DNA from: Asterochloris sp. CNOR1
Lineage: Eukaryota; Chlorophyta; Trebouxiophyceae; Trebouxiales; Trebouxiaceae
Length of the DNA: 64,000 nt
Direction of reading: 5' to 3'
NCBI GenBank assembly: GCA_963969365.1
Contig: OZ017760.1
Coordinates: 2,170,001-2,234,000 of the forward strand
Shown: positions 1,847-63,250 of the stretch, in pieces
Numbering within the stretch: position 1 is the first letter of the stretch
How the letters are laid out: each line of letters begins with the position of its first letter
The notes under the pieces: generated by a model
What the model was told of the DNA's origin: nothing
What the model saw: the letters and a program-made list of their open reading frames with translations, nothing else
Database searches by the model: none
Program-made: the position numbers and the translations under genes

Positions 1847-3660
1847 ATGAAGCTGCAGATTACCAAGTGAGTCACCGGTTGCTGGCATCATCGACATCGG
1901 GGCGTTGCACTCATACATGCACACTGTGCACACAGGCACCTACTCAGCACACGTCTGGCTCTACTCCATGCATCCTCGCAGCACCTGGTTCTCGTCAGCA
2001 TACACATGTCGAGATCTGGAAGATCTCCGAGATTTTTTAAGGCGCACTCAGCTGCTGCCTGCCCTGCAGATGGGATGAGGACAGAGATGGCAAGCTCAGC
2101 AGGTGAGTTGCATGCCATAGAAACAGTGGCCAAGCTCTGAGAAGCCTTGCCCACTGCTGGGGGAAGGGGAGCGGGCTTCCCAGCTTTGAGCTGCCCAAAC
2201 GGCTTGAGCAGCTGTTGCCTCGCTTTCTGCCAACCCCACTGGCCCTGCAGGTGTGCCATGATGGAAAAGCTGCGGCATGAGGGGTACAACGCAGTCACCT
2301 ACAGCTTTGCTCCTGGTGAGTACTGCCAGTACATTCTGCGGTACCACTTTTAGCAATACAGCACCTGTTGTTGAGACAGCGTCCTGTGAGCCACACGTCT
2401 CACAGGCGATGTCAGATGCACGATCTCAACATGGAGATCAGGCATGCCTGGGGCCTTCACGTCAAGATTCTGTCCTGTCTCCTGTGATTGAAAGTCACGA
2501 GGCAGTAGGTGCTGGGCTCATGCAGGAGTGTGGCCGGATTTCACATGAGCAGGTCTAGTTGAACCATATCTGCCAGCTTGGCAAGACGACACCAGCAACT
2601 GCTGCACATGTGCCTGCCTGCACCCCACTTTCGCCTGCCGTCGTGCCCCCTGCCAGCCTGCCTGGCCACCATCCAGTTGCAGCATGCACATAGTCAAACA
2701 TGTTGCCTGTGGGCAGTGGCATGCCGAGCCAGCAGCTCCAGTAAGGGACAGGCCTGCGCCGGACACCTTGGTGTGATGCAGTTGCAGGGACCACCTTCAG
2801 CTGGCACACAGACTGGCGGTGGAGTGCTCTTGTGAGCTGTGGGACTGTGAATGCAACACCCATACTCAGCACTCGGCTGTGGTGCGTATGCTAGACTGGG
2901 TGTTGCTATCACCGTCCCACAGCTCACTAGAGCCTGTGCTGTGGCGCAAGCCTCCCCGCCACACCCTACTGGGGTACATGTGCAGGCACGACCTTCACCT
3001 GGCACAAATAATGGAGCTTGGCACAAGCCCTCATTTCCAGTCCTGTTGCATGTAATGCAAGACACCGCTGTTGATGTGTGTGCAGGCACCACATTCAGCT
3101 GGCACAGGCATGGCTGCAGCAAGAAGGACTCCATCGTCAGCGGGAAGTTCCTCTTCAAGACAAAGGACGATGAGGTGAAGTATTGCAGTTCAAATCTAGG
3201 GTGATGATGAGGTCAGTCTTTCTCCAGGTCCTGGCTTATTGGGGGCAAGCACAGCTGCTGCTCTGCTGGGCTTGGCAGGCAGACACCCCCTTGGCACAGG
3301 CTGCGGGATCACGGCCTGTTGCATCACAACTCTGCCACGCAATATGGCAAGCCTGGCTGCTGCTCCGCCACACATACAAGCTGTGAAAGCAGTGAGCAGA
3401 TTGGCATCACCATGGGTGGCAAGTGCAGCTACACGGTACCCAGCCCTTCCTGCTGTGGCATTGCATGTGACACGCCAAGAGCTGCCTTCCATCAGTGCAG
3501 TGCCCAGTCTCCATTGGCCTTGATGCTTGTGCAGGTCGTCCTCGAACCTGGCGACATGCTTGAGGTGCCTGCCGGCCTCCGCCATTTTGCCCAGGTGGTG
3601 GGCAACGAGCCCGTGGAGTTCTTTGACGCCTCCAAAACGCAGGTGCCGCGCATGGACTAG
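1847..3660 (+). CDS. Small single-domain cupin protein
   Basis: Five exons join in phase: 1847-1866, 2070-2102, 2251-2315, 3086-3174 and 3535-3660, giving 110 residues. The order of motifs is that of small stand-alone cupins found in bacteria and algae: an N-terminal WDEDRDGKLS stretch, AMMEKLRHEGYN, then PGTTFSWHRHGC (cupin motif 1, with the HxH metal-ligand pair). These are followed by SGKFLFKT and LEPGDMLEVPAGLRH (cupin motif 2, ending in the third His). Known: such proteins form a beta-barrel and usually bind a divalent metal. The reaction is not predictable from the family. The ATG at 1847 is supported because the seven-codon first exon supplies exactly the two bases needed to enter the TGG codon of the second exon. 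The 770-base third intron contains two degenerate copies of the next exon's start and an inverted repeat. Confidence 0.82.
2784..3105 (+). repeat. Three copies of an acceptor plus exon start (cupin intron 3)
   Basis: The real acceptor and exon start (3082-3105, GCAG then GCACCACATTCAGCTGGCAC) is preceded by two degenerate direct copies, at 2784-2808 and 2992-3007. Each keeps the GCAG acceptor and a version of ACCTTCAGCTGGCACA. The first copy would encode GTTFSWHT, as in the real exon; the second runs into a stop shortly afterwards. They look like tandem duplications of the intron-exon border. Confidence 0.7.
2832..2930. repeat. Imperfect inverted repeat in cupin intron 3
   Basis: Arm one at 2832-2862 begins GTGAGCTGTGGGACTG. 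Arm two at about 2900-2930 reads as its reverse complement with only about three mismatches over 31 bases, across a loop of roughly 37 bases. The transcript could fold into a hairpin inside the intron. It may be a trace of a small foldback element; no target-site duplication was found. Confidence 0.65.
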
Positions 3661-3888
3661 CCATGCTCGGTGCCTTGAGCGGTTCTTGGTCACCTTGCCT
3701 GCCTAACATGTCTGTTTACGGACCCTGCCTTTGCAGTGATGTATTTGTTTGAGCTGTTTTACAAGCCGGTCTCCAGCACAACAATTTGATCGATATCGTT
3801 TGGACATCTTAAATGCTTGTGTAAGCCTGATTGACAATATGTTCAGGTCTAGCCATCTGCTTTGACCAACTGGCCCCTCTCAGACTGA

Positions 3889-6189
3889 GCGCAGCACAGA
3901 CAGCGGCAGATCAGATCATCCCTCATCGGTCGTAAGCCAACGCAATCACAGGCGCATGCGACACCATAGTCGCAATTCCACCTGGAGTCCTGCCAGGAGG
4001 GGATCTAGGTCCAGATCAAGGGACCATCACAGGTCTTCTGCACTGCTCAGATTGCTGAGTTCAATCACACCCTGCATTGTAAGAAAGTGCTGCCATGCAG
4101 CTCGACAAACTTTTTCAAGGCATAGATCAGATAGGTAGCATACAAGGAGCCTTCTGATGAGGTGATGTAACATGCAAGGGCATGTGTGCTGCAGGAGAAG
4201 GTCGCGATCCAGGTCACAAAGCAGGCATCATACATCCAGAAGGCAAGCCCTGTTGCTGTGAGGCCTTCTGAGGAAGCCGCTTTGTCATGCTGTTGCCGTT
4301 TGCCATCTGCGCTGCACAGTGCTGCTGCAAGCCTGACTGTGCACCACAGCAGTCTCTGTGCTGCATGAGAGCCCACCTGTGTAGACATGACACTGCAGTG
4401 CTGTTGGTGCTACTTCAAAAGGGGCACAGCCGCTGTTACAGGGAATGCCACACCTGAAATTGATCACATAGGGGGTCCCTGCGTAGCAGAGCAGTGTTTG
4501 CATTGGCGGTCAAACACTGTGGGGGCCACTCGTGCAGATGGAGGCACAGGGACGCATGGCAAGCTGGTGGTGTGCCTCAAAGAGGGATGGTGCCACTGCT
4601 AAACTCCCGCAGCTGCTGGATGAGGTCAGTTGTGCGCAATACATGCCCACCCCATCAGGCAGTCCAGCACTGCTGCTGCCTCATGACAAGGGCTGTTGCC
4701 ACTGTTGCAGGCAGAGTCCCCTGCACAGACGAAGGGACCAGGACACGCATCGGTCCAGGCCGCGGTCCCGCAGCAGAGATGGCAGGCGACGCTCCCCACG
4801 CAGAGATGACAGGGACAGGCGCCATGAGCCATCGGGCAGCAGGGACGGCAGGCGGCGCTCCCCGAGCAGAGGGTAGTGGACTAGCGAGCATCAGTCTGCC
4901 CAGTCGGGCCTCTGGTGCCGCTCACTTGCAGCCGCAGCGTTGCCTGACACCTTGTGGGTGTCCTGGTCAGGGGCCTGGTCTCTCAGGCCAGCAAGCTTGC
5001 AAGCCTGAACGCTCCAGAGGTGCCGTCTCCTCAACTGCAGACCGCCTCATCTTGCAGGTCTGCCACTGCCAGGCACGCAAGCAAAGAGCTGACCAGCAGT
5101 TGCAAGCATGATTTATGCAGGGATACACGGCGTCCCTTGCACTTAGGCCTGGCCTTTTGCCAACGCCTCCCTCTTGAGCCAGACAATGTCCAGAACCTCC
5201 AGTGAGAACAGCTCCTCATTGTTGCAGGGGCAGGCACCTTGAACGGGACCACATTCGTGACCGGGAGGGGCTTCGCCTCCCATACAGGAAAACCTGCAAC
5301 AGGGACAGGCAACAGGTGGCTCCAGAGCAGCGCCGGCTGTTGCCTGAGCCTGGCAGGCAGCTAGAGAGGCACAGCCGCCCTGCAGGGGACAGGCCTGCGG
5401 ATGGACCAAGGTCAGCACAGCAAGGTGCAATCTACTGCAGTTGACTGATGCGTTGTTGTGCAGGGTCATGTACCTAGGGCAGCAACCTGTGACTCCTGCT
5501 GCCCCACGCAAGGTGTTGTGGGGCTGGCACAGCCCTCTGCGGCTCAAACCAAAATGCAGTAGCAGAGCTGTGGCTGCAGGTCACAGCAAGAGCAGCTAGA
5601 TAGGGACAGGCACCCACCTGGCCAAGCACTGACGGCTGGCCCTGCTCCCAGTGGTGCTCATGGCGCCCACCAGCTGCCAGAGCCACCACCAGCGGATGGC
5701 GCAACAGCCCCTGTGGCGCGTAGTGGCGCAGCAGGTGTGCATGGCAGCTGCAGAGCTGGATGCTGTGCTTGAAGGACCTGAGATCCTCCTGCTTCCTAGG
5801 GAGGCTGGTGTGCCTGTTGCTGGGCTTAATTGGGCAGGGACTGCACTTTCACTATTACGTAAGCAGTTTTGGAGTGCTTTGCCTGCAGCGGCCAGCAGGT
5901 AGTCTTGTGGGCAAATGAATGGTGCTTGCGAGATATGCAGCAAATGGGATGGCTGCTGTTGTTGTCTGCAGGGCTGCCAGCGCCACCACCCGTGACGAGC
6001 ACGTCAGCCCATAGGGTGACAAATCAGCAGGTGACAGCACATGCGGGGATACCTGGTTCCCCACAACTGCCCCTCCCAATGCTGCCCTCACGGCAGACGC
6101 CAGCACAGGGTGCCGCCGAGAGCGCCTCTGGGAAGGTGCTGCTGGGACAGCCCGCGGCTTCTCAGGCCTCAGCAAGTGAGGCACCCTAG
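3889..6189 (+). CDS. Arginine/serine-rich (RS-domain) protein, model incomplete
   Basis: Several plus-strand exons share an RS-rich composition. They are 3889-4032 (ending SRSRSRDHHR), 4195-4242 (RRSRSRSQSRHHTSRR), about 4711-4872 (many RS/RD pairs such as GRRRSPRRDDRDRRHE), 5234-5424 (Arg/Glu/Asp-rich), 5610-5734 and 5972-6175 (Pro/Ala/Gln-rich). The last could end at a stop at 6189 or splice on to an exon at about 6398-6525. RS domains are typical of splicing and mRNA-processing factors, where phosphorylated RS dipeptides mediate protein contacts. No RNA-recognition motif is visible, so this may be an SR-related protein rather than a classical SR factor. The start codon was not found and exon joins were not all phase-checked. 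The exon at 4195 would use a GC donor (AG|GCAAGC). The exons after 5600 could belong to the downstream LSM11 gene instead. Confidence 0.5.
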
Positions 6190-6664
6190 TGTGCTGCAGG
6201 CTTGTGTGGGGCACACTGCGCCAACGCAGCATGGTTGTTTGTATCTCTGAGGCACACCCAAGACAGCCTGGGTAACCAATACGGACTGGCGGCTCAGCAA
6301 AGATTGCCCTCACCACGTTTTCACCTCTGGCCAATTTGGTCCGCTCAGGGCTCAGCAGGCAGCTCACAGACCCTTGCCTGGCGTTCTCTCACCACAGGCC
6401 TTAATTACTGTTGTCAGGACTTATTTCAAAAGTCATGTGTCATTTCCACCAGAATCGGCAGTTTCAGGAGGTGCTGTGCTTTCAACATCAGGTTGTGTGA
6501 CCCTTTCACTGTGTGTTCAGCCTAGCACTGCTAGGCTGTACCTCCCAGTTGCATGTTAAGCGGCTGCTTCTTCCCACTCAATTCCTGACAGAACCCAGCA
6601 GCAGCCCCTTCCACTCCTGTGCTGTCAGGCCCAATGATGTCACATGTAGCTCACAGGTCTCTGG

Positions 6665-6955
6665 CCTCAGCAAGGCCACCCAGAGTCCCCTGACATCAAG
6701 CTCGACTCTTTCCTGCCGCTCTTTGACGCCACAGAGGATCTGGCCACACCTGGCTGACATCCCCTGATGCAGCCTCTGCTCTGCCGTCTGCTGGCTTCAC
6801 GGGGCCCAATACAACTCAGCACCGTTTCAGCATTTTGTAGCTGCACTGCAGGCACAGCCATCAGGCAAGGCCACCCTGAGGCCCTCGACCCAGCGCTCGA
6901 CTTCTTCTCGCCTCTCTTTGACGCTGCAAAGGCTCTGGCCGCACCTGGCTTGAAG
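6665..6955 (+). repeat. Tandem duplication of LSM11 N-terminal exon, first copy broken
   Basis: The segment 6665-6755 and the real exon 6865-6955 align over their length, including the preceding acceptor region. The first reads GHPESPDIKLDSFLPLFDAT and the second GHPEALDPALDFFSPLFDAA in the same relative frame. The first copy hits TGA directly after ...LATPG, where the real exon continues into LKPPRP, and no GT donor precedes that stop. It is either a decayed exon or a poison exon. The two copies are about 195 bases apart. Confidence 0.8.
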
Positions 6956-9416
6956 CCGCCGCGGCCCAAGGCGCGGCCTCTGGACAACGTGGCCAAGTGC
7001 CGCGCCCTGCTGCCCCCGGAGCTGGAGGACTCGGCTGCGTATCGGCAGATGCTGCGTCCCGTAGTGTCACCCGAGGTGAAACCCACACTTCCTGATTAGG
7101 CATGTGCATTGGTATGATGGATTCTTGTTGGAAGCGGCTTAAAAGAGTTAGATTCCTGCAGCACCTGATCTGGGACGACCTTGACCAGCAGAGCAGCAAA
7201 TGCAGACTCTGCGACCCCACAGTTGCCTCCACCTGGAATGACTGCACCTAGTACCAGTGCATAGTAGTCTCAGCCATGCCGCTTGGTTTGCACCTGAGAC
7301 GCAGCCTGCTATGGCTAGACGCTCAGGCCAGGCAAAACAGCAGGCAGCCTGGGACACTCCACCACTGCTTGCAGCGAAAGAGGCAGGCGCAAGAGGTGGC
7401 CAAAATGCGAGCAGGGCGGGTCAGGATGATGCAAGAGCAGGCAGCCGCCAAGGCACAGCAGGGCTCTACCCTGGAGGGAATCATGGACAGGTAGGGAGGG
7501 GCTTTACTGCATCGCTGCCTCCCCAGCCAGCATCATGTCGATCTCCTGTGTGGGCATGTATACATTGCATTTGGCTTGATGCACCACTGAGCATCCATCA
7601 AGGCACAGAGGGGCTCCAGCCTCAACTGCAACAGGGACAGGTGAGGCGTGCTGTGGTCTTGGCTGCATCACCAGCTTTCCCCGTCAGCATGGTATCCGGT
7701 GTCTTGGGGGGCACGTGTGAACTGCACTTTGGGTTGCATGCCTCTGCGCAGGCAGCTCCTGAGATGCAGCAGGACCTCGCCTTGCCATGATCACGGCCGA
7801 GCGTGATTCTGACTTTGTGCTGGCTCATTGTCAGGGCTTTCATGGGCTGCATTGGCCCTGTGATCTTTGCAGCGGCCAGTGGCCGGCAGGTATGGGTCCA
7901 CTCAGCTGGGCGAGGCAGAACTAACAGTACTTCTCCTTGATTCCTGCAGGTGCAAAAGGGGTCCGCTCAGCTGGCTACGGCAGCACTGTCAGACGCATAC
8001 ACGAGTCAGAGTGGTCACCCGGCACGGGTGTGGGGTTAGGGGCTGTGCAGTGGGTGAGGGACTGCCTGCTGCAGTGAGCCGCCGGCACCCAGTAGTGCTG
8101 ACTCACTGTGTTGGGCTGAATCTGCTGCTTGTGGGCGCATATCACCTGCACGGGTGGAGTGCAGGCTGTTGTCCTCCTGCTCACTGTAAAGAGCTACAGG
8201 TTGATGCTACCTGGCGGATTCTGACGCAGCACATGAAATTAATTTGCTTATTGCCTGGTCCAGGCATCTGTGTAGGCTGGTTGATGGGCGGGTCAACATT
8301 CGATACAATGAAAATACTGCTGCTGTTGACTGCCTGATAGGCACTGCAGAGTTATGGTTTGCTGCGACTGTTGTGGGGTTGCTGGCCCAGAAAATTACTG
8401 ATTGAGCCTGCTGCCCACCTGCTCCCCTGCGGCGCCTTATGGCCTTGCCACCTCTGCTCTGCTGCACGCTGTTTTCAGGCCTGCTCTTCTCTGCTGCAGG
8501 CTTCCTAGTGGGATTCGATAAGTTCATGAACCTCATTCTGAAGGACGTGGAAGAGAACTACACAGTCATGGTGCAGGCGAGCTTGTGCTTGATGCGCTGT
8601 GCCAGGGTCTGCATTTAGAGTCTGGGTCAGGCAGAGGAGGCAGGAGTCTGCATTGAGCCAAGGGCTCCACATGTGGCTGCTAGCCTGGTGCACTTAATCC
8701 CTCACGATGCAATGTGTACTAACCCTGTCAGGGAGCATATGGACTGAACCTATCATGGTGCACTGAATTTCTCATGGTGCCAACAAGCTCAAGCACTGCG
8801 GCCTGAGTTTGCCTGCCTAGGCTTCTTGAAGTTTCATGGTGCATTGCGCCCCTGTGCTCAAACAAGTTTTCGGGGTGGAGTTTGAGCACAAGCCGTCTGC
8901 TAGTGCCCGTGCCACCATCCCTCAACATCGTCTGGTAGCTGTTTCCACTGCAGGTGCCTCACCACTACACTGTGCCTCTCCATGCAAGCCAGGGCGGTGA
9001 CAAGCTGGATCAGCCGCTAGCACTTGGCATGGCTGGTGAGGTTTTGTGCATCTCATGCCTGAACGATGTCACTGCTACTCAGCAACTGGTACGGGCAGTG
9101 AGCTCTGACCATACCTTGCGCTGAGGCATCTCACACATGCTCACATGGCATTCATGTGAAAAATGAGGCGCTACTATCTGCAGGCCCAATGGCAGCCATG
9201 GCAGAGAGCGAGAGCGTCTTTAGACCATACAATCAAAGCTGTTTGCTGTCTGCAGGTGCCAGCGAGACCCTGGAGGTCATGAGCGTCAAGCACAAGTTTC
9301 GCTGGAAGCGCAGGGCAGAGCAGCGCAGCCGGCGCCTGCACCAGGTGCTGCTGCGTGGAGAGCAGGTGGTGCTCATTAGCACAGTGGCAGGGCCACAGCA
9401 GCAGAGGCCACAATAG
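6767..9416 (+). CDS. LSM11: LSM11-like Sm protein (U7 snRNP core subunit)
   Basis: Exons 6767-7075, 7375-7490, 7950-8053, 8500-8576 (or to 8570), 8954-9035 and 9256-9416 join in phase to about 282 residues. Three parts match the layout of animal LSM11. The N-terminal block has SPLFDAAKALAAPGLKPP and then LDNVAKCRALLP. The Sm1 half is GPLSWLRQHCQ followed by VRVVTRHGCGVRG, spliced to GFLVGFDKFMNLILKDVEE. After a spacer the Sm2 half is LHQVLLRGEQVVLIS near the C terminus. Known: LSM11 with LSM10 replaces SmD1/D2 in the ring that binds U7 snRNA, which directs 3' cleavage of stem-loop histone mRNAs; the LSM11 N terminus recruits processing factors. The first exon is uncertain: the ATG at 6767 is in frame, but an upstream exon is possible. 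An alternative is another divergent LSm protein, but the split between Sm1 and Sm2 favours LSM11. Confidence 0.75.
7450..7983 (+). repeat. Echoes of LSM11 exon edges inside the exon 2-3 intron
   Basis: The end of exon 2 with its donor (7450-7496) recurs in degenerate form at 7600-7646; both begin AAGGCACAG and end GGACAG followed by a GT donor. The start of exon 3 (about 7945-7983) has an upstream copy at 7885-7918 that shares GGTCC.CTCAGCTGG and the closing GGCAG. The intron is therefore built largely from copies of its two flanks. Confidence 0.65.
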
Positions 9417-10246
9417 AGACCTTACGATCTCTGTTTTAATGGTGTGGACCTTTGCCGGTACCTGCCGCACATGCCTCTAGTGCGGCAGCAAATGGTGCTC
9501 GTCAGGGCAGTGCGAGAGAGGTCAAACCAGCAGAGGCCACAGCTCAAGCTTCATGATGTCAGTTCGGTGCCTAGCTGCCCCAATGGTGGATCTAGCAGGT
9601 CTTAGTGTTTGGTGCTAGCTTCAGCTCTTCGAAGCAAGCATGTGGCCTCCACAGCTGCAGCGCCAGCCATCGCCCAAGCTACACCAGAAGCTTCAACCAT
9701 GAAGTGCTGGTGTTTATCGACGCCACCAAGACTCTGGAATGCCGGCAGAGCAGAGCGTGGCTACTTGCAAACACCCAGGGGCTTTCAATGCATGCCTACT
9801 GTCACCAACAAGTTTTCGACATAATTGCTTGATGGCTGGCTGTGTCCCTACAAGTAAACAGATGCTGTGTGGTGACAAGCTCTTGTGCTCTCATCAGTGG
9901 CGTCTTGCTCCCTCCATAACTGCTCCCTCCCTGACCAAAACAACAGGAATTTTGCTTGCCACCCCCCGCCATGGACATCAGCCAAAGGCAATGAAAGATA
10001 TCTCTAGAGCTTGAAAGATAGATGCCAGGTGGCTGAGGCTCAGCTTTCCAGAAGATCTGTGACGTTCTTTTGCCCCGCTTACTTGATATGTCAGAACCCC
10101 TGCGCACAGCATGCTTCTACTTAGCCAGGTGCAACGCAGTTACTGGATGATCTAGAGGGTGCTAGCGCTCCTGAGACATTCACATACAGCGTAGCCACAG
10201 CCCATTAAAATCGGCCATGTGAGGAGGTACCCCTCCGAGCCCAGCC
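9417..10246. other. LSM11 3' region and intergenic stretch
   Basis: No gene was recognised. Just after the stop, 9486-9544 is a degenerate copy of the last 57 coding bases of LSM11 (9359-9416), sharing TGGTGCTC and CAGCAGAGGCCACA. An open stretch near 9690-9830 (FNHEVLVFIDATKTLECR...) lacks a start and a recognisable family, and I do not call it a gene. Confidence 0.5.
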
Positions 10247-11456
10247 ATGACTGACAACGAACTCGTACGAGGTGAGCACCGCAGCAGTTGTCAGGCGTCA
10301 TGCAGCGGTCAAGAATAATCTGAGGCACTGCCCTGGATCACGCACAACAACTGCACCTGCAGTGGCCAGGAAGCTGAAGAAGGCCGCCATGAAGGGTCAG
10401 CTGGAAAGGGTGAAGGAGCTGTACATCCCCTTGCTCGCAGACGCGGGGACAGGTGCTGGGGATTTTTTGATGCCAGCATGTTCACATCTGAGGCATGACT
10501 CTGCTGATGCATGACGCTGCAGATGAGGATTGTCAGTCAGTAGCCGAGGCGGCTGCAGGACGAGGACACCTGCACATCTTGCAATGGCTCAGGGAGCAGA
10601 GTCCAAAGTTTTTGAAGAGCGGCTGGATATTCTTTTCTGCTGCAACCGCAGGACACCTGCACATCCTGCAATGGCTTGGGAAACAGCCCCCTGTCAAGGT
10701 TTGAGGCACTGCTATGTCCTGAGGACACATTGGTGTTTGCGCCTCACCCAAGAAGTCTCTCTGCAGGTCATGGGCGGAGCTTGGATTGACATCCGGTCCT
10801 ACATGTTTGCACAGGCTGCAGGCAATGGTCACTTGCACATCATACAGTGGCTCAGGGAGCAAGACCCGCCATGCCCCTGGGACGTCATGGCTTGTGTGAG
10901 GGCCGCAAGGAGTGGTCACCTGCACATCATCCGGTGGCTCAGGGAGCAGGATCCGCCATGCCCCTGGGACACATATCCGCCGCCATATGGAGATTGTGGT
11001 ACTGTCTCTGCAGCTGGGGAGTCAGGTCACCTTCATGTCATGAGGTGGCTCTATGAGAGTGGCTTTCCCTGGGAGCAACAGTATGGCACTCAGTACATGC
11101 AGGCTGCAGCTGGGAAGGGTGACCTCAAGGCACTTGAGTGGGCCAGGAGTCAGCATCCTCCATTTGTCATGGATGAGACTGTCTGTGAAGCAAGCTGGTA
11201 CATGAGTCTTGGCGCAATCGGTGTGTTGGAATGGTTACGCACACAAGATCCTCCTTGTCCTTGGACCAGTTTTACAAGACTCTATTCACAGAGAGCCATC
11301 TTCATCAAGGAACATCTAACTCTGTGCGGGCTGGCAGGAGAAGTGGCTGTCGTTATCACAGACATTGTCTGCAAGATTGAACATCAAGCAGGCTATCACA
11401 TGTTGGTGGGATGCATCCCACCAGATATTTCTGGTGCTACGTTTGAGCACCGCTGA
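10247..11456 (+). CDS. Ankyrin-type repeat protein (GHLHILQWLREQ repeats)
   Basis: Four exons, 10247-10271, 10363-10452, 10523-10698 and 10767-11456, join in phase from ATG to TGA and give 326 residues. At least five degenerate repeats of about 33-37 residues carry the core A(A/R)xxGHLHI(L/I)(Q/R)WL, four of them followed by a linker such as REQDPPCPWD. This is the divergent ankyrin type found in large families in algae, oomycetes and giant viruses. These repeats act as protein-binding scaffolds and no partner can be inferred. No F-box or other effector domain is seen. The last 60 or so residues (FIKEHLTLCGLAGEV...) lack repeats and may cap the solenoid. The short first exon (MTDNELVR) is supported by phase. 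Composition is like its neighbours and it has introns, so recent viral transfer is not indicated. Confidence 0.82.
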
Positions 11457-11974
11457 GCTACTGCAGTAGCAGGTCAGCTGACCTGACCCCCTTGATCGGG
11501 GGCATGTGAAGTCATCATGGCATATGTGTGGCTCTGAACGTAGCTAAGAAGAATGCTCAACTGTCATGGGTCCTATGTTTTGGTCTTGCAATGCAAATCC
11601 GCTCAGCAATCAGAATTTGCTGGCATGCACACTGTCTGCTGTGTCACAGGGTCCATTGCCAGCTAGTGCAGTGCGAAAATGTAAGCCTGTTGCATGCCCA
11701 GCTTGAGCCTGGCAGCTCATTTGGATCAGGGGTGGCAAATGTGTTACGCACTCGAGTGGTGCTTGCAGCTGGTCTGTCCCTGGGTCACCAAATTGCACCC
11801 ATAGCCTCCACGAAGGCTCTCGTCCAGAATGACACCTCCAAGATAAAACTCAGCCCAGGATGTTGCCTAGTACCAGCAAACAGATTCCTAAACAGATCAA
11901 TGATCACATTCAGGGCGAATTTATATCAGGGCGATGATGCTCCTGATGGGATTGATATTTTGCCTTCTTGCAGC
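11457..11974. other. Intergenic or 5' region of the RsmE-like gene
   Basis: The frame of the RsmE first exon stays open back to 11528 but without a convincing start or family similarity. An N-terminal targeting sequence or an extra upstream exon could lie here. Nothing else was recognised. Confidence 0.4.
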
Positions 11975-13766
11975 ATGGTGGGTCTCTCGCCAATTCTATG
12001 CAGAAACAGGTTGCTCTTCAGCCCAAGTGAAGTCCCAGCAGCACTGCCAGGCAGGCTGCTGATCCCTTCATCAGATGCACGCGCTCAGCATGTGCTGCAG
12101 GTGATGTTATGATCAGCAGTTTCCTGCACCCATCATCTGCAATGTACTCATGCGCAGCCTGCACGGTGTTGGCGCTGCAGGTCCTCAAGTTGCAGACCAA
12201 GGACAGTGTCAGGATTGGCGTGCTGAATGGGCAGATATGCACAGCAGAGGTGCATGCACTGCGCCAGACCTGTGTGGAGCTCGCCTGCACCAAGTGGCAC
12301 CAGCCAGAGCCTGTGCCACCCCTGCACCTGCTCCTAGCAATGCCAAGACCTAAGGTCAGGAGCACATGAGCACCACGTCCATGAGTATAGAGATGTTGCC
12401 TGCACTGTGCTGCCTCATGAAGGCTGGGACCTGAGCCGCTGTGGCCCTTCCCTGTTGCACAACATATTTTGCAGCTGCAGCAACTGGCAACGTGAGGCAG
12501 CAAACCATTGACGCCCCCGACGTCAAATCTGTGTGCCCTGCTGCTGGCAACGGCTGATTCTGTGTTGGCCTGCCTGGGTTTCAGCAGCGCACCGAGACCC
12601 CAGCAGGCAGTGCTGCAGTGCAGCTCAACATCTGCCTTCAGGTGCTTCGGCGGCTGTGGCCCACCCTGGCCTGCCTGGGTCTCAGCAGCGTGCACATCAC
12701 AGGGGCTGCCCGCGTGTGGAAAGCCTACTGGGGCTGCCGTGCCCTGGAGCCAGCTTGCCTACTGGCAGGGCTGACAGAAGGCAAGCAGCACCAATGTGTG
12801 CATGAGGGGGAAAACCAGAGTGGCTTGCGCGGACTGCATCCTGGCAGGGCTGATGGCAGGCGAGCAGCCCCCAGGTGAGCCTGCTGAGGAAGAGCAAGGA
12901 GTGGCTCTTGCCTGAGGGCACAGATGGATTTGGCCTGCGAACTAGCAGGGCTGATGTAAGGTAAGCAGCAGTTTTGAGCAGGGTGTCACATGGCCTCCCC
13001 TTGCTGAGTGGCCAGGTGGCTGCGAGGATGTCGCATGGGGTAGGACTGCTGCAGCAGCTGCAAACCTGGACAGCCGATTGGCGGCTGGTGGGTGCTGACA
13101 TCTGTGTCTTGCAGTGCCCAAAGGACTCATGCACTCCCAGCACAGCGCAGACGCTTGTGCTATGCAGGTCTTGAGCAGGCGGGCCATACCCAGCTGCCGC
13201 CAGTCAGCCTCTGCAGGACGCTGGAGGGCAGCCTGGCGCACATGAATAGAATCCACCCAGCAGGGCAGCCAGACGAGAGGGCGCATCTGTGGCAGGCTCC
13301 CCCCTGCAGGCTCGTGAAGCACTCTGCCGAAATGAAGCTGCACGACTCCCAGCGCCTCATGGACGAAACACTTCTAGAGAGGCTCTCTCTGGACGGCAGC
13401 AAGGTTGAATTTGAGCCTGACCAGGGCAGTGACTGCCCCCAGCACAGCTCGCTGCGCATGAGGCGGCTCAACACGGAAGCAGCTCCCTCTCGCAGCTTAC
13501 GCCTGCTGGCACACCCAGACGGCAAAAATGCCATGCCTGGTGTGAGGCGCACTCTATGGCAGCATGTAGAGCAACACCCGCTCAAGCGCTCTGTACTGTT
13601 GGCCATTGGTCCAGAGGGTGGCTGGCTTGAGCCTGAGCTTGAACTGCTGCACAACCAGGGCTTCAGGCAGCTCAGCGTGCTGCAAGGCAGGACTCTGGAT
13701 ACTCACACTGCTGTCAGCGTTATAACTGGGCTGCTGCTTGAAAGCTGTTTCTCTAGACAGCAGTAA
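11975..13766 (+). CDS. rsmE: RsmE-type 16S rRNA (uracil-N3) methyltransferase
   Basis: Exons 11975-12100, 12181-12354, 12642-12780 and 13168-13766 join in phase to 345 residues. The N terminus has the PUA-like start NRLLFSPSEV and DARAQHVLQVLKLQTKDSVR. The middle has VLRRLWPTLACLGLSSVHIT. The C-terminal SPOUT half contains LLAIGPEGGW and LSVLQGRTLDTHTAVSVITG, the S-adenosylmethionine-binding knot. Known: RsmE methylates U1498 of bacterial 16S rRNA as a homodimer, so a plastid or mitochondrial ribosome target is likely here; that is inference. The insert between the two halves (about 13200-13500, Ser/Arg/Leu-rich) is longer than in bacteria. The ATG at 11975 is the nearest in-frame start and may not be the true one. 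Exon 3 needs a GC donor (GAAG|GCAAGC at 12780/12781); reading through it meets a stop at 12876. Confidence 0.82.
12756..12966 (+). repeat. Three serial copies of the RsmE exon 3 end and donor
   Basis: The segment ctactGGCAGGGCTGAcagaaGGCAAGC (exon end and GC donor, to 12786) recurs at about 12838-12866 (GGCAGGGCTGATGGCAGGCGAGC) and 12942-12966 (AGCAGGGCTGATGTAAGGTAAGC). The donor dinucleotides are GC, GC and GT. Only the first keeps the downstream reading frame. The sequence between copies is also partly repeated, with units of about 80-100 bases. Confidence 0.75.
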
Positions 13767-14054
13767 AGGTGGCTGTGCAGGCTGCCTCTCAGAGTCTGAA
13801 ACATTTCAGGGAGAGCTTGACAGATGTGAGAAGCTGTAGAGTTGATGCATTCACAATGCAGTTCAGCGCGGCGCAAAGCAGGGGAGAGTTTGGGGAGCAA
13901 TGAGCTCAGAGCTGGCTGGTTTCGAGTGCTCAACCTGCTTACGCTGCAAGTAATGTGAGGCAGGGGGCTGCTGACAAAACGAGTGCTTCCACTCAGTCAG
14001 GTCATACTGCTGAGGTGTTTGCATGCTACTCATAGAGTCAGGCAAGATGGTCAG

Positions 14055-19197: not shown

Positions 19198-19254
19198 GGC
19201 GCCCGGTGTAAGCTGGTCAAGTCAAACATCTAGCCGAGAAAGCGAAGTGCAAGC

Positions 19255-53100: not shown

Positions 53101-55722
53101 CTGGCCAGTACTTGCCTTCACGCATGCAAACGCTCTTGCCAGTGCTCACCTCCATACACGCAGGCCGTACGCAGCCTTGGGGCTGTCTCGGCGAACTCGC
53201 GCTCGACCTGCTTGGCCAGCTCCCGAGTGGGAGCCAGCACGATGCAGCGTGGCTCCCGCCTACGCTTGCCCCCCTCCAAGTCTTCAGCCATCAGTTTTTC
53301 AATGACCGGCAGGGCAAAGGCAAGGGTCTTGCCGGAGCCTGTTCGCGCCCGGCCAATCAAGTCGCGCCCTACACGCATGATGAGGCTTTAGGTGACAAAC
53401 AGAGCAACGGCAGGACCTGCCGCACTCGATGGGGCCTCCATCTTTTGGACCTGCGGCTTCTACAGAAGCTGCTTGTCAAGCACAGCCAACTTAGCTGCAA
53501 CAGAGGTAAGTGCACAAGAGTTGACCAAATGGAGAAACAGATGCAATGACACTGCCACAGCCACTCATCAGCACACTCTGCTGTTCACAGATACTCTGTT
53601 TACTTGCAGCACAGTTAATTGCCCCAGTTCAGCAGTACCTGCCACGCTGGAATGGCTCAAGAGGCACAGTCCCAAGCTGCCTCAAGCCTGCATGGGCCTA
53701 AGATGTGCAATCTTACATACACAAAAGGGAGCATGCAGCCAGCACGTGCATCAAGAACATGATGCAACACTGATAGCGCCATCGCTCGGGGGTCTGCAGA
53801 ACCTTTGCCAGAAGCCACAGGCTGACCTGCAATTTGCAGAAGCATGCAGCAAGCATGGGCACACTGCCCAAGGACGCTGTTGCCTGGGCATAGGCTGCTC
53901 CTTTACCAGGACACCAAGGGCTGACCTTCATTTGCAGGGAGGAAGACGTGCTTCTGGATGGGGAACAGGGCTGTGATGCCTCTCTCCTCCAGCGTCTTCA
54001 CTGTGATGTCTGACAACCCGCAGTTCTTGAGCTGCAGACAAAAGAGCAAGACCTGAATCCAGCCAGATGAGGCAATACCATGGCTCCTAAGCCATGCCTG
54101 GCCAGCAGAAGCAAGGCTGGCAGTGTGCACAGCAAGCAGCAGGTCCTGGGTGGTCAGAGCAGGGCCAGTGGTCAAAAGGAGGGCCAGTGTAGCCAGCTTT
54201 AGGAGGCATGACTGTATCTACCCCTACCCAGCCAGCGGAAGCAGCGCGGCATGGTGCACAGCAGTGTGCAGCCCATGAAGCTGCAAGCAGAGGATGGCAA
54301 CATCCATTTCAGCTGTGCCACACCCTGCAGCTGCCTGGCCTAACTATGAACGAGATGGAGTTGTGCCGCTGCAACTACAGCACCTGAGCAGGGGCAGATG
54401 GAGGTACAGCAGCACCCTTACCAGGGCAGGTCAGGCACATTGCAGGTGCTTGCAGTCAGGGCAGCATCGCATGCTCAGCAGTCAGGAGCCTCGTCTGCAG
54501 CGCCTCACAAAGCTGCGGCTGACACCCTGCCAAACCTCAGCAGCAAGCTTATCACCCCCAGACACCCGCACTCCAGCTCGCCAGCAGTGACTCATTTGCC
54601 CGATTGGGTCCATCTTGAGCGGTCCTCCCTTCGTTGAAGAACCTGCTGAGGGTCTGGCTGGCAATTTCCCAGCCACACATGCGCAACCATCATGCAATAC
54701 CCCAGACTGCACCAGCATTGCTTGGCCAAGGTGCTGCTGTCGACCAACAGGCTAGCAGTACTTGTTGCTCTGCACACTCAGACCGTCTCAATGCTCACCA
54801 GCAGCGACTCATCGGCCTGCGTGGGATCCACCTTGAGCACCTCCTCTTCCCCCGTGAAGATGCTGCTCAGGCTCTGGCTGGCGCTGCTGTAACGCTTGAA
54901 CTCCTCATCAACGTCCAGCTCCTCCTCTCTCTCTGCGTCATCCTCATCAAGCTCATCATTGAACACAGTAGGCTCAGCCTGCAGATTATGGACAAGGGAT
55001 TTCGCAATTCTGCACTGCTCAAGGCCAGCGGATCAATGACCACGCGTACAAAGATCAAGCTATGTTCTGATAGCATTGCCTGCCCCACTGCACTCCGCAC
55101 CTCTACCCAGAGCCCTGTCTATACATTCTCAAGTCAACTCGAGCTTAGACTCCGACTTGAGAATGCACAGGCAGGGCCCTGGGTGCACCACACAACCAGC
55201 AAGCAAGCAGCAGAGCCTTGAATGGTGCGGTGCAGGTTGGCCCTGCCCAATGCAGGCATCAGCACCCCAAGCAGCGGTCAACAAGCAGTGGGGGCAGAGG
55301 ACTTCCCACGTCCACACCCTAGTCAACCTCATTGTTCAAGTCAGGCATGGCTGCTGCAGCTGCTGGGTGGAGCACTGCATTGCAGCACAGAGGAGGGCAG
55401 CAGACAGATACAGCAGCCACCATCGAGTCAGGCAGCCGCTCACTGTTGCAGCGGCTGCGGTAGCCACTGAGCGGCTGCTGGGCTCTGCGTCGGATGAGTG
55501 CAGCGCCCTAGTGGTCAGGAGACTCTGTGTCTGTGACTGTGAGGACAGCCTCGTCCGGGAGACAGCAGTCGTTGCTGTACTCCTTCCAACCAAGGGCTGC
55601 CCCAGCAGGTAGAATCGTGCCTGCAGGGCCTGCTGGGGCAGCACCCTTGGTTGTTGCAGGGCTGTGCCGGAGAAGAGCTGCATGATGGCTTGACGGGAGA
55701 GTTTTGTGGCGGCCCTCAGCAT
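47129..55722 (-). CDS. Organellar DEAD-box RNA helicase with Gly/Arg-rich tail
   Basis: Exons (minus): 55722-55444, 54978-54799, 54031-53926, 53368-53150, 52602-52490, 51829-51606, 51295-51139, 50745-50590, 49742-49623, 49334-49104, 48818-48612, 48295-48174, 47983-47939, 47816-47601, 47183-47129. They join in phase to 809 residues. The basic, Ser/Gln-rich N terminus ([13 protein letters not shown]...) looks like an organelle presequence. Motifs in order: Q region [14 protein letters not shown]; Ia [63 protein letters not shown]. After the core come a GUCT-like region (about 540-640, [20 protein letters not shown]) and a Gly-rich RGG/SYGGG tail. Known relatives are plant RH3 (plastid, rRNA processing and intron splicing) and the mitochondrial PMH helicases; the GUCT-like part favours RH3. 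Plastid versus mitochondrion is unresolved. The last two small exon joins are the weakest. Confidence 0.9.
47340..47606 (-). repeat. Five-fold serial donor repeat after the Gly-rich exon
   Basis: The exon ends GGCAGGCAGCAG|GTGAGCTGA (donor at 47600). Downstream on the minus strand, units of about 60-70 bases (GGTGTGCTGGGGCTGGATGC, TGGGCAGCAG|GTGAGCTGCC...) repeat four times, to about 47370. Each ends with a near-perfect copy of the exon's last ten bases plus donor (GTGAGC three times, GTAAGC once). Confidence 0.9.
49917..50215. repeat. Two-copy 146-base tandem repeat in a helicase intron
   Basis: CCCTCRATTTTCACATGAGC starts at 49917 and 50063. The copies share about 85 percent of bases by eye through CAAAAGCACTTCATGCAAAAG, and a partial third copy starts at about 50209. 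It is intronic, with no resemblance to the flanking exons. Confidence 0.85.
52352..52512 (-). repeat. Triple donor echo at helicase exon 52602-52490
   Basis: The exon end and donor (minus GAGCTCAGCCTGGCACAT|GTGAGCAGG, plus 52481-52510) recur at 52419-52447 and 52352-52380 with one to four changes (TGCTCAGCCTGGCACAT|GTGAGC and CACCCAACCTGGCACAT|GTGAGC). Unit length is about 62-67 bases. Confidence 0.9.
53061..53172 (-). repeat. Triple donor echo at helicase exon 53368-53150
   Basis: The real donor GCGTGTATGGAG|GTGAGCACTGGC (plus 53138-53170) is followed on the minus strand by GCATGCGTGAAG|GCAAGTACTGGCC (53103-53129) and GCGTACATTGAG|GTAAGTACTGGCC (53061-53089). The donors are GT, GC and GT, about 36-42 bases apart. 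The two downstream donors match the consensus better than the real one. Confidence 0.88.
53819..53945 (-). repeat. Donor echo at helicase exon 54031-53926
   Basis: The exon end CCTGCAAATGAAG|GTCAGCCC is repeated about 100 bases into the intron as CTGCAAATTGCAG|GTCAGCCT (plus 53819-53842). Confidence 0.75.
54578..54892 (-). repeat. Decayed copy of the 3' half of helicase exon 54978-54799
   Basis: Plus-strand 54797-54890 (real exon, [24 protein letters not shown]) and 54578-54672 align over about 93 bases. The copy ends AATGAGTCACTGCTG|GCGAGC, so its donor is now GC, and the frame between is broken. Confidence 0.85.
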
Positions 55723-55892
55723 GCACGACGCGGGTTCGCTCCGGTCACAATGATGAGCCTCTCTGCAAACCCTCAATGCCAGACTCGTGGCAGCTTTCTG
55801 TGGCAGTTGATGGCTGATATATTTTTCTGAGAAAGAGGGCAAAGTAGGTCTGGTTTCACGCATTGGTCCGCCCTCAGAGATTCAGATCCCTC
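55723..55892. promoter_or_regulatory. Short divergent promoter, helicase and SRPBCC gene
   Basis: 170 bases separate two start codons that point apart, both leading into presequence-like N termini. A shared promoter for two organelle proteins is likely. I see no clear TATA box. Confidence 0.5.
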
Positions 55893-58800: not shown

Positions 58801-61800
58801 TAGAGTCTCTGTCTGTGGAGACCTGAGCAGGCCCAATGTTATTGTCAGGCATGTGTCCAACCCTGCTCCACATTGCACCGGCAAACATGCAGCTGAGGAT
58901 GTGCATGGCACCTGCGCACTTAGGCTGTACGGTGCCTCATCACCACTCCTGCGTCTTCTTACAGATGATCCAGCACAAGGAGAACCCAGCCCTATGCTCA
59001 TTCTTCATTTTCTATCGATGGGGTGAGCACCTGCAAGCAACAAAAAGCACACTGCTGGCATGAGCTTTTAGCCCTTGGTGGACAACTCCAGCTTGCCACA
59101 AAGGCCGCGCTTAGCGGCCACAACATGTGCTGCATGCACCCAGCGGTAACTAAGCAGCGTATGGAGTCAATCATTCTTCTTCACCTTGAGAGGTTGTCTG
59201 CTGTATTGGGTTGACACCCTCTCAAGGTGAAAAATGATTGACTCCATACTGCTGCTTCTGATGACTATCATCTTTTGACGATTATCATTGACAGCTAGCG
59301 GACGGCTGCTCAAGCACTGCTGTGCAAGGATGCATCAATCCTGGACCACAACCACTCATCAGCATCATTGAGGCACAGCTCTGGACCTAATGCCCCAGCG
59401 GGGGCATGCCCAGGTGTCCCATGACCTCACTCCTGCATTTCCTGGTTGCCAGGCCAGCTGCCTTGGCTAGAACTGTTCACCACCCTCTGCCGATCGTCAA
59501 TTGAGGAAAACAGCCACATCATCGAGGAAAGTGTGGAGGGCATGGACTTTGTGTCAGGCGCGCTTTTTGAGGAGTTGAGCGATAACAGCACCCAGATCAC
59601 CCTCCGAGTGGGCTACTATTTGCCAGGTGTGGCACATCGCTGCTTGTGGGGAGGCTGGGCTGTGGAGGCTGTTGGGTGTCCTGACCACGCAGCTCCGTGC
59701 ATTTGTGAGCTGGTAGACTCCCAAGGGTGTGCAACTGCTGCCTTCGCTGCACCCCAGCGGCGCCCTTGCAGACACGAAGGGCTGCAAAAGACACCTGTTT
59801 GCCGCAGCAGTCCCTGCACTCCCTGTAACATCTTTAGCAGCTGTTTTCCAGCTTTCAGCAGCGCTGTATGGCCTCTCATCACTGTCAGCATGCTGGGTTT
59901 GAGAGGTGCGGTGCGGTTTATGCCATGAATGGCATAAATGGGGCCCGCCTGCCAAAGAGTGCTGTCTCACAAGCTCTCAGACTGCTGTGAGCATCCAATA
60001 CGCCTCGCTGCTGAGGGCTCAGGGAACCAGTCCCAAAAATGTTGGAGTAGTTCATGCCCTGACCAGCTGCAGATGGGCACATCAGCTGATGGCTGCTGCC
60101 CTTGATGGCTGCTGCCCCTGCAGTGAAACGAATGCATGATACCATTAAGCCAAGTATGTGTGCGTGTGACCTGCAAAAACGGGTTCATTGCACCTGCCAG
60201 GCAGAGCTGGGCTGTTTCCACAAACTATGTTTGTGCACCTGTGCCACGCAGAGGTGGTGAGGCCTTGGTTGGGTGTGAGCACCAGATATAACAGCTGCCT
60301 GTTCTTGTACTTGAACCCAGACTGAGCTTCTGCATCACATGCTGTGCAGAGCCACTGAAGGACTATGTGGGCCCCATTGGCTTGTATGGCCACGTAAATG
60401 ACATCCTGAAAGAAAACATGTCACAGATGAAGGTGGGTGGGTGGCATGACCGCGCAAGCGCCACTTCATGTGGCTGTGCTGACTCATGCAATGGTCGGGC
60501 TGGGGTCAGACGAACCTGCCCTGCACAGCCCCAGGATGCATAACTCGGTAACCCATTTGAAGGGGCTTTGAATTGCACTAGCTTTCTTGGGTTGGCGCAG
60601 AATTGAGCTGCATATTATCTACTCAACCACGTACACATGTTGGCTCTGTCGCACTGCTGGCAGCATATTGTCCTGGGCAATGACCCTGCCCATGCTGCTC
60701 TGGGCCAACTCTTGCTCCGCACCTGCCTCTAGTGCTGGAATGCTGTGCCTGCTGGCATGCACCTCTGATTACTTTGCCCTGGTTCCTGCAGTCCTTCATC
60801 GAGAAGACTGACCTTGAGGGGCTGCAGCAAGCCCGCCAGGAGGATCATGAGGGCATGCTGCAATTCAATAAGACCATGATGGACGTGAGCTGGAACTTTC
60901 TCATGCCTGGCAGCTCATGCGCTTGTCTGTGATGCAGCTTCCACTCCAGCAGATGGCTGGGAGCATGTGCCCTTCTATGGGTCTTGTTCATGGCATGCTG
61001 GCTTCAACTCTCCGTACATGACAGTTGCGTCTTGTCTTTGGCATGCTGCTATGTACTCTCTGTGCATGACAGATGGTCAGCGTTTCCAGAACGTCTTGCC
61101 ACCTCTGTTGCTGGAAAGCTTGTGGTTGCGGCCAGCACCCAGCTGCAGTGGGACCACCTACTGTGGGACATGCAACGTCTCAAGTCCTCCCCTCAGACCC
61201 CAGTCTGCCTGTTCAGGATGCTTGCCTGCTGTGCAGAAAGTCCTGGTGACATGTAGCATAGCATCTCGCAGGCGCAACCCACTGCTTGGGACCTTCTTTC
61301 CCAGCGCAGCACCGCCTGCCCTGCACATGCTGCTGAATGCTGGGTGCCTGTCAAGCATGAGCTTGGCACCCACACCGTTTTAGTGTCAAGCTGGGTGCCT
61401 GCCATGCAAACTGTGCAGGAGACCTACGGCACAGATGCGGCCTTTGGGCGCGCCTGCAGCCCTTTTAGGCCCAGTTGTACAGGTCCTCTGGGGCACTGGT
61501 TTCTCGACCTCAAGCCACTCTCTTACATGTGTCAGACTGGGTACTGGTCTGCAGTTTGTGCGGGAGACCTATGGCACAGAAGAGGAGCTGCAGGAGCAGG
61601 CTGTCGAGTGGCTTGAACAGCAGGATCTGCGAGAGTTCCAGCGGGAGTACGAGGAGGAGCTGGCCGCAGCCGCTGTCCAGTTTGGGGAGGCAGAGGTGAG
61701 GGCATCTGGTGCTGGGCTCTGCCAGCAGCAACATGGCAGGGAATCTTTGAGAGAATTCTCCGAGGTCCATTCCTTTGGAAGAGCATCTGGGGTCAGAGCA

Positions 61801-63250
61801 TTTGCAGGCAGCAGCAGCAGCGTGTGGACCACCCCTTCAGCCCACTCACAGATTTGGAGAGCAGCCAAAAGGTTCATCGAGGTGCTCAGTTGTCACTCTT
61901 GTCTACTTGAGAAACGTGAGGAGGACGACCCTCCAGCTTGCCTTACGGACTGTTATGTGACTCTCATGAGCTGGAGTGTTGTTGTTGGCCTTCAGGATGA
62001 GTTTGAGGAAAAGGCCAACCCAGCAGCATACGCCTTTGGGGACGGGGAAGTGGAGGACAACTTTGAGATCAGCAAGTTGACTGAGGAGGAGCTGGCGGAG
62101 ACGGAGCAGGCTGAGGCAGCGCAGGTGCGCTGCTGGCTCTTGCGCATTGGTCATTGGGTCAGGGTCAGTGTCATTGTCAGAGCTAAAGCACCCATGTTGA
62201 AGCCAGCAGGGTGTGCACAGCGTCTTTTGGTTTGGCCAATGGGTCCATCCTCCGCTTCAGCAATTGCTCCAGTGCCCGCTTTGGCAGAGGAGGCCTCGCC
62301 AGTCCCAGTGCCGAGCCTGTTGGCCAGCCTGCAATGCACTGCATGTGCTTGTCACACTTGCATGAGTCATGCAGGCGGAGGCAAAACCTGAGGTTGCCGT
62401 TGCAGGTGAGGCCCCCAATGCAGTGCATGTGCCCGAAAGTCTGGCATGTGTCCTGCAGGCCAAGGCAGAAGCTGAGGCGGAAGATGCCAAGACTGCAGTG
62501 GATGGAGGCGATGAGGCCACTGCAGGCAGCACGGGAGCCATGGAGCAGCAGCGGGATGGCACCGGCAAAGGTGCAGGGCAGGTAGCACAGGGTGAGCTGC
62601 CTGCCGACACTGTTTCAGCTGCCCACTGTGGTTGATGCATGTGCTGTGAAGGCTGACTGCTGAGCAGTGATGGGATGGCTGCCAAAGCTGCAGGGCTTGC
62701 CGATCATGTAGACATGACGCTGCTGACACAGATGTTGCATGCACTTGCTCAGCATTGTTGTAGTGGAGCTGCAAATGTAGCAAGCCTGTCATGCAGTCAC
62801 TAACCGGTCGCGGACAGCTCTCTGAGCAGCAGGCCACCCTGCACACACAGTCACAGCCAGTACACAATGCCTTTTGTTGCTGCAGATCTGGAGGCTGCCA
62901 CTCAGGAGGCGGACGCCTCAGAGTCAGCTGGTGCCCAACAAGCGGAGGCCCAGACTGAGCAGCCGACCTTGCCCAAGCGGCGGACACGGAGAAAACCCAC
63001 AGCAGCTGCTGCCTCTAGCCAGCAAGCAGAGGCAGACGAGGGACAGACTCCAGCGGCACCAGCGCCCAAGCGACAGACACGTAGGAAGGCTGCATCAGCT
63101 GAAACAGCGCCTGGCGGCCAGGCAGATGCTCCAACGCCTTCTAGACGACAAACACGTAGAAAGGCGACTTCACAAAAGGCTGATGCTGGGGAAGCCCCAG
63201 AGCGGTCACGCAGGAAGGCCGCAACAGACAGAAGCCCCACAGAGACATAG
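55893..63250 (+). CDS. Plastid-type SRPBCC/polyketide-cyclase-like protein
   Basis: Exons: 55893-56050 (transit-like, MPSSWTLPTPHRCLLRQPRP), 56638-56774, 57185-57318 (RGGGRGGGPGRGGGAKKRG), 57851-57977, 58260-58433, 58965-59022, 59453-59626, 60350-60432, 60792-60884, 61555-61695, 61996-62124, 62375 (or 62459)-62570, 62886-63250. All joins are in phase except 57977 to 58260, where an exon is missing or misplaced, so two genes remain possible. The exons from 58260 resemble the START-like SRPBCC fold: EVITTVDAPVSKCFKIWENR, ENPALCSFFIFYRW, FVSGALFEEL and ITLRVGYYLP, then an amphipathic helix near KDYVGPIGLYGHVNDILKEN. Such proteins bind lipids or other hydrophobic ligands. The Glu-rich part (61555-62570) is followed by a tail with three (K/R)R(R/Q)TRRK repeats that could bind nucleic acid. 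Ligand and process are unknown. Confidence 0.72.
59153..59256. repeat. Intronic hairpin, about 39-base stem
   Basis: Arm one, 59153-59193 (GTATGGAGTCAATCATT...TTCACCTTGAGAGG), is nearly the exact reverse complement of arm two, 59218-59256, with small internal differences. The loop is about 24 bases. It lies in the intron between exons 58965-59022 and 59453-59626. Confidence 0.92.
61385..61590 (+). repeat. Echo of the SRPBCC-gene exon start at 61555
   Basis: GTCAAGCTGGGTGCCTGCC...TGTGCAGGAGACCTACGGCACAG (61387-61434) precedes the real GTCAGACTGGGTACTGG...TGTGCGGGAGACCTATGGCACAG (61531-61580). The copy encodes VQETYGTDAA against the real FVRETYGTEEE, but soon loses the frame. Confidence 0.82.
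62330..62485 (+). repeat. Tandem acceptor/exon repeat, one copy exonised
   Basis: CAATGCACTGCATGTGC...CATGCAG|GCGGAGGCAAAACCTGAG (62332-62394) and CAATGCAGTGCATGTGC...CCTGCAG|GCCAAGGCAGAAGCTGAG (62417-62480) are 84-base tandem copies (28 codons). Both acceptors are in phase 0 with the preceding exon. The sequence from the first to the second acceptor is open in frame, so use of either acceptor gives a continuous protein. Confidence 0.8.

Follow-up and report, generated by a model that had tools for sequence, protein, structure and literature searches.

Intron lengthening is usually ascribed to transposons or to unspecified small insertions. Duplication across splice junctions is already known as a kind of event: in the potato RNA-dependent RNA polymerase (RdRp), a tandem duplication across an intron-exon boundary created a new intron (PMC4974935), and in Drosophila coding segments that contain a proto-splice site were duplicated in tandem (PMC2891723). 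In Daphnia neointrons, direct repeats of 4-12 bp, attributed to staggered breaks, lie at the opposite end of the new intron (PMC4202315), and in Chlamydomonas and Volvox the tandem-repeat density is highest in introns, with more repeats near intron-exon junctions (PMC3887541). Here we report on a stretch of 64 kb from the green alga Asterochloris sp. CNOR1 (C15:2170001-2234000, hereafter the window), the introns of which hold degenerate copies of the border of their own adjoining exon, termed exon-edge echoes. The sample comprised the window and 23 other ten-kilobase loci of the same genome (56.38 Mb in 21 contigs); the G+C content is 0.576 in the window and 0.52-0.59 in the first 18 loci.

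Similarity of introns to their own exon edges

Gene models were predicted ab initio, after training by us on the window and the 23 loci, and sometimes merge neighbouring genes. They contain 487 introns (median intron 307, median exon 127), with a CAG/GTGAGC-like donor and a CTGCAG/G-like acceptor consensus. From 476 internal introns we kept 291, removing 185 with short flanking exons, a length outside 120-1200 or weak sites. To define an echo, we searched each intron for the edges of its flanking exons, taken at a length of up to 40 bases, and ranked the match against edges from other loci (rank P-value). By this wrong-exon ranking with 40-base edges, P ≤ 0.01 is reached in the own intron by 18 of the 138 edges tested in the window (1.4 expected) and by 49/444 edges in the 23 other loci (4.4 expected), which bears out the own-edge similarity claimed in an initial annotation of the window. 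At P ≤ 0.02 the number in the window rises to 22 of 138 (about 2.8 expected), close to the two dozen sites estimated there. At least one echo is present in 20 of the 24 sequences, in agreement with the claimed recurrence in unrelated genes, and in 61 of the 291 introns, i.e. in about one in five, with about 6 expected from two edges at 1% each.

With 30-base edges and a cutoff of P ≤ 0.02, matches were found for 31/291 donor and 32/291 acceptor edges (5.7 expected), and all controls remained at chance against the same expectation, with 5 and 5 of 291 matches for the far edges of those exons, 5 and 3 for reversed edges and 5 and 6 for reverse complements. The copies are in direct orientation. 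The placement stated for the window, with copies downstream of the exon on the donor side and upstream of it on the acceptor side, follows of necessity when only the adjacent intron is searched; the control that bears on it is the one with far edges. In five unseen loci, analyzed with the frozen model and 30-base edges, 6/122 edges reached P ≤ 0.01 (3/61 donors and 3/61 acceptors; 1.2 expected), and 7 donors and 6 acceptors of 61 each reached P ≤ 0.05 (3.1 expected each); the reverse-complement control at P ≤ 0.01 gave 0/61 and 2/61. The replication is thus positive, though weaker than the first sample. Pfam-supported window genes, with ranges set by hand, also echo (10/90 edges). The observation of exon-edge echoes is therefore confirmed as real. 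An echoing edge has one copy in 56/67 cases, two in 9/67 and three in 2/67; multiple copies exist, as the initial annotation had it, but they do not extend to the five it proposed.

The echoes are homologous to their own exon edges and are decaying. In the 56 strong echoes (P ≤ 0.0055), transitions account for 198/383 mismatches (52%), versus 631/2170 (29%) in 350 chance alignments, and in the echo alignments codon position 3 diverges more (148/643, 0.230) than the other two positions (122/652, 0.187, and 113/645, 0.175). Mismatches of this kind are characteristic of common ancestry followed by mutation, in which the exon is protected and its copy is not. Gaps occur at about 0.11 per substitution (41 vs 383), and 12/56 copies contain a stop in the reading frame of the exon, which together indicate that the copies decay as noncoding DNA; in view of the stops they are not kept, as a class, as coding exons. 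Fifty-three of the 56 local alignments are below 90% identity and none is above 95%; this degree of divergence makes assembly error unlikely.

The frequency of echoes is strongly associated with intron length. From the shortest introns (<200 nt) to the longest (>650 nt), the proportion of echoing edges rises through 1/74, 5/144, 11/166, 22/120 and 28/78, and 50/67 echoes sit in introns of 450 bases or more. Matches of interior intron windows show no comparable rise (3/122, 7/166, 7/120 and 5/78 by increasing length). Over a third of the tested edges beside introns of 650-1200 bases (28/78) thus still show a copy of their own inside the intron. The climb of the echo rate with intron length fits intron growth, and to this extent the link to growth suggested for the window is upheld.

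Origin of the copies

We consider it likely that the echoes go back to true local duplications at exon-intron borders, most of them old, which lengthened the introns that carry them. According to this reading, a segment with an exon edge, its splice site and some intron would be duplicated, in direct orientation, at a distance of no more than a few hundred bases. The outermost splice site would presumably stay in use, which would leave the protein unchanged and turn the extra copy into intron, where it would decay like ordinary noncoding DNA. Since selection keeps its template constant, the copied exon edge would be the part that can be recognised for the longest time. Repetition of such events would have lengthened the carrier introns.

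This reading is consistent with the large excess of direct over inverted repeats at distances below about 500 bases, and with the continuation of some copies past the junction. Among 65 echoes, 31% reach an extension score of at least 40 when continued into their own intron, compared with 10% of 520 continuations into wrong introns, 1.5% into the next exon and 2.5% into wrong exons (mean scores: own intron 31.1, wrong intron 19.6, next exon 10.8, wrong exon 12.4). A retrocopy of spliced mRNA was rejected, since the next exon extends the copies no better than wrong exons do. Copies that end at the splice site, as an ungapped identity profile had seemed to indicate, were rejected as well, since gapped alignments and the extension tests show that part of them continue; about two thirds of the echoes are without a clear continuation past the junction. 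Nor do the copies behave as introner elements, in which one element recurs in many unrelated introns: they resemble the exon beside them more closely than exons from elsewhere in the sample, although no genome-wide search for such elements was made.

A few contiguous units do span junctions, as the initial annotation had proposed. In the window, positions 17722-18155 (minus strand) hold tandem units of 141 bases (Tandem Repeats Finder (TRF): 3.1 copies, 82%), each composed of the 3' end of an intron, the acceptor region and a UIM-coding exon start of a YOD1-like gene, in which Pfam finds one UIM match. TEDE..ARA.AA can still be read from the exon starts of units 2-4, and the ab initio model treats units 2 and 3 as coding; here the duplicated border may have become a new coding exon. 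Between units 2 and 3, similarity is no higher in the exon parts (37/47) than in the sequence that precedes the acceptors (82/90), which gives no support for selection on the copies. At positions 6918-7154 of another locus (L007), two units of 119 bases share 88% identity and carry an intact acceptor each. In a third case (L011, 6198-6987), a unit of 387 bases (82%) duplicates a whole exon with both splice sites in tandem, and both exon copies, of 153 and 147 bases, are predicted to be coding. The last array is the one clear instance of the whole-exon copies that had been claimed; as a class they are not separable from chance in an uninformative test at a score cutoff of 100 (81/547 own vs 370/2480 wrong pairs).

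For the bulk of the echoes a junction-spanning tandem origin is less evident, and several results weigh against the reading that we prefer. A strict tandem test at P ≤ 0.05, with a power of 0.98, 0.86 and 0.33 at a per-arm divergence of 0.15, 0.25 and 0.35, was passed by 13/49 echoes. Beyond the aligned edge, similarity at P ≤ 0.05 continues further into the exon in 10/48 cases (2.4 expected) and into the intron in 15/55 (2.8 expected). The copies lie at a median distance of 148 bases from their own edge (n=56); with so few extensions, most visible blocks must be shorter than this distance, and a junction-spanning unit as long as the distance should cover more exon. Matches are most frequent in the last 40 bases of the exon (64/477 windows) and drop to 11/411 at -80..-40, and windows inside the intron (19-27 of 486, and 24/462 at 120) stay far below the peak. 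None of 65 exon-edge matches has at least 88% identity over at least 28 bases, although a steady process should yield some, and in the other selection of 56 local alignments 3 are at 90-95% identity. Finally, generic simulations of tandem duplication give ratios of exon-edge to intron-edge matches of 0.5 to 2.3, versus 2.4 to 3.4 observed. We infer an origin by border duplication for all echoes, the use of the outermost splice site and a causal role of the duplications in intron length.

The introns themselves do not seem to have been born by this process, as the initial annotation had considered possible. The donor and acceptor regions of one intron are no more alike than wrong pairs (mean in-register identity 8.59 own vs 8.74 wrong, of 34 sites), 0/291 introns reach 18 in-register sites (0.48 expected), and local alignments of the two junctions of an intron are also at chance among the 291 introns. 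Intron birth was therefore rejected.

Alternative explanations of the exon-edge peak

It is quite possible, although we lean somewhat against it, that the echoes result from a generic background of tandem duplication, perhaps an old burst, with no link to junctions, and that exon edges stand out only through the selection that protects one copy of each pair. Short-range direct repeats are abundant in the sampled sequences and fade by about 500 bases. Of the clear tandem arrays, with periods of at least 10 (median 16), 12/99 cross a junction (12.9 ± 2.8 expected, i.e. no preference), and ungapped repeat arms cross donors (26/291) and interior points of introns (119/1045) at similar rates; acceptors, however, are crossed more often (51/291). 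Among all sampled loci the period is a multiple of three in 16/21 exonic tandem arrays, versus 22/68 noncoding ones, which implies that duplication strikes exons too and is then filtered by selection. A simulation of one event yields a 1.5-1.9 fold advantage in the detection of exon edges. The excess observed in matched windows is larger, i.e. 2.4 to 3.4 fold depending on the intron window (intron-interior rate 22/486), and is more pronounced in long introns, where exon-edge windows match in 24/96 and 26/97 cases, compared to 2-10 of 99 elsewhere. Edges at the start and stop of the coding sequence, conserved on one side, should echo too if protection of one copy were sufficient, but they do so in 1/46 cases (0.46 expected), a small sample from poorly modelled terminal exons.

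We simulated ten generic settings of tandem duplication, with a constant rate or a burst, none of them fitted to the data. One constant-rate setting matched the height of the peak (0.135), but with nearly equal rates in introns and with young matches. An old burst of 65-base units left no young matches and gave a ratio of 2.3 (0.060 vs 0.026), but a height of 0.060 compared to 0.134 observed. In none of the ten settings do the height, the narrowness and the age profile of the peak arise jointly. What is needed is therefore either a larger old burst with survivorship or a process focused on junctions.

The latter possibility, i.e. duplication directed to exon borders, for instance by repair of transcription- or splicing-linked breaks, and active mainly in the past, appears to us rather unlikely. 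It would account for the peak on the last 40 exon bases, which is seen on both sides, with little at exon interiors, for the lack of an echo excess at start and stop codons in the small sample mentioned above, and for the age profile, with 32/65 exon-edge matches at 78-88% identity and none in the younger class; windows in introns gave 8 young and 27 middle-aged matches in 2314 (sums over five windows). On the other hand, crossing of donors is not raised in the ungapped test (26/291), and the old burst of short generic units nears the observed ratio. As the ratio of this nearest burst (2.3) is close to the observed range, it shifts the balance from a junction-focused process towards generic duplication. 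It is accordingly doubtful that the long introns of this lineage owe much of their excess length to a past wave of such duplication, in which exon borders, and not introns at large, would have been copied into the intron; if they do, introns would have grown preferentially from their splice sites.

It is improbable, as far as can be judged from the predicted sites, that the copies persist through use as maintained alternative splice sites or poison exons. Splice-site scores above the cutoff are found in 10/22 donor and 9/22 acceptor copies, with 12.2 and 8.5 expected without selection, and three units of the YOD1-like array retain an acceptor and a UIM-coding exon start. However, among the copies aligned up to the junction GT is intact in 9/22 donor copies and AG in 11/22 acceptor copies, compared to 13.8 and 14.5 expected from the flanks, so that a retention of spare splice sites is not supported; a looser cutoff gives the same picture (GT 9/31 vs 19.5, AG 11/24 vs 15.6 expected), and this deficit may be due in part to copies that end before the junction. 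The in-frame stops, the even spread of copy distances modulo 3 and the comparison of YOD1-like units 2 and 3 likewise argue against maintenance. An artefact of gene models, base composition or assembly is hardly credible, even though the models are our own and merge neighbouring genes and the replication was weaker (6/122 with 30-base edges, reverse-complement control 2/122, vs 67/582 with 40-base edges), given the wrong-exon, far-edge, reversed and reverse-complement controls, the echoes in Pfam-supported genes, and an identity below 90% in 53/56 copies and above 95% in none, which excludes collapsed or repeated reads.

Copies along the window and comparison with known systems

Pfam matches were obtained for 7/8 predicted protein pieces of the window genes (Cupin_2, LSM, Methyltrans_RNA, OTU1/OTU/UIM, alpha-amylase/CBM48, protein kinase and DEAD/Helicase_C/GUCT); the remaining piece, SRPBCC-like, has no Pfam match. 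Among ten raw open frames scanned with Pfam, one gave matches, to ankyrin repeats (Ank_4, 1.5e-9); it lies at 10527-11456, where no exon is modelled, and is probably a missed gene. The ab initio models also place GC instead of GT at the start of 42/476 predicted introns, which is a high proportion if real.

The following copies have P 0.0045 unless another value is given; the rows called weak should be read with about 2.8/138 edges expected to reach P 0.02 by chance. On the plus strand, the acceptor-side copies are those at 2788-2819 (exon edge at 3086, cupin gene; supported by alignment), 3995-4031 (edge at 4195; P 0.009), 6664-6694 (edge at 6852; supported by alignment), 7892-7922 (edge at 7950; weak realignment, score 51), 37009-37035 (edge at 37092) and 61412-61440 (edge at 61555, SRPBCC-like gene; supported by alignment). 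The donor-side copies on this strand are found at 6648-6673 (exon ending at 6175; P 0.0135, weak), 7601-7640 (exon ending at 7490; supported by alignment, with the copied donor included), 12936-12969 (exon ending at 12874), 41214-41245 (kinase exon ending at 41096; the alignment runs about 45 bases into the intron) and 62672-62696 (exon ending at 62591; P 0.0135, weak).

On the minus strand, the YOD1-like gene has a donor-side copy at 16735-16766 (edge at 16991) and an acceptor-side copy at 18143-18173 (edge at 18041), the latter being the upstream unit of its array. The branching-enzyme gene has donor-side copies at 26668-26706 (edge at 26817; supported by alignment, with the copied donor included) and 29809-29848 (edge at 29913), and acceptor-side copies at 27934-27971 (edge at 27722) and 29366-29399 (edge at 29022), with two copies for each of the latter edges. 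A further acceptor-side copy lies at 32388-32427 (edge at 32202), where a permissive alignment covers about 80 exon bases, as it does for the donor-side copy at 54582-54620 of the helicase exon edge at 54799. The other helicase copies are weak, i.e. donor-side at 51020-51055 (edge at 51139; P 0.0179) and acceptor-side at 52847-52878 (edge at 52602; P 0.0135), except for one at 47236-47274 (supported by alignment), a further copy of the exon edge at 47601. Adjoining this exon end is an array of 55-base units at 47343-47608 (minus strand; TRF: 4.9 copies, 83%) with repeated CAGGTGAGC-like donor motifs. The initial annotation had described its copies (47340-47606) as nearly identical, which the 83% does not sustain; moreover, the unspliced helicase frame meets a stop codon at 47597-47599, for which reason the array may be 3' untranslated region rather than intron.

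No genome-wide description of exon-edge copies was found among the matches listed in the CC (Creative Commons)-licensed literature, a search that did not cover subscription papers. Taken together, our results partly support the interpretation offered for the window in the initial annotation. The echoes could serve as a natural set of decaying splice-site copies and as a trace, potentially datable, of how introns grew by local duplication; with them, the question of intron growth can be tested in any intron-rich alga for which RNA sequencing data and a close relative exist.

Each of the described systems shares part of this pattern, as far as the accessible portions of the four sources allow a comparison. 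Chlamydomonas and Volvox, likewise green algae, have more repeats near intron-exon junctions, but the survey counts tandem repeat motifs and not degenerate copies of exon edges, and most echoes are not seen as tandem arrays here (PMC3887541). As in the potato RdRp, duplications cross the boundary and the copy inherits splice sites; however, the potato case is a single recent one that created an intron, whereas here there are many old cases and no in-register donor-acceptor homology (PMC4974935). In Daphnia, too, introns contain exon-terminal bases as direct repeats and tend passively towards greater length, but the echoes span 25-40 aligned bases or more, at a median of 148 from their own edge, and occur mostly in long introns (PMC4202315). 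In Drosophila, too, local duplication makes new copies of splice sites, yet there it leads to new intron positions, whereas here existing introns seem to grow (PMC2891723). What is less ordinary here is the peak on the last 40 exon bases together with the lack, among 65 matches, of any copy with at least 88% identity over at least 28 bases. In sum, the exon-edge echoes are genuine, occur widely and represent remnants of local duplication at splice junctions that are explained in part.

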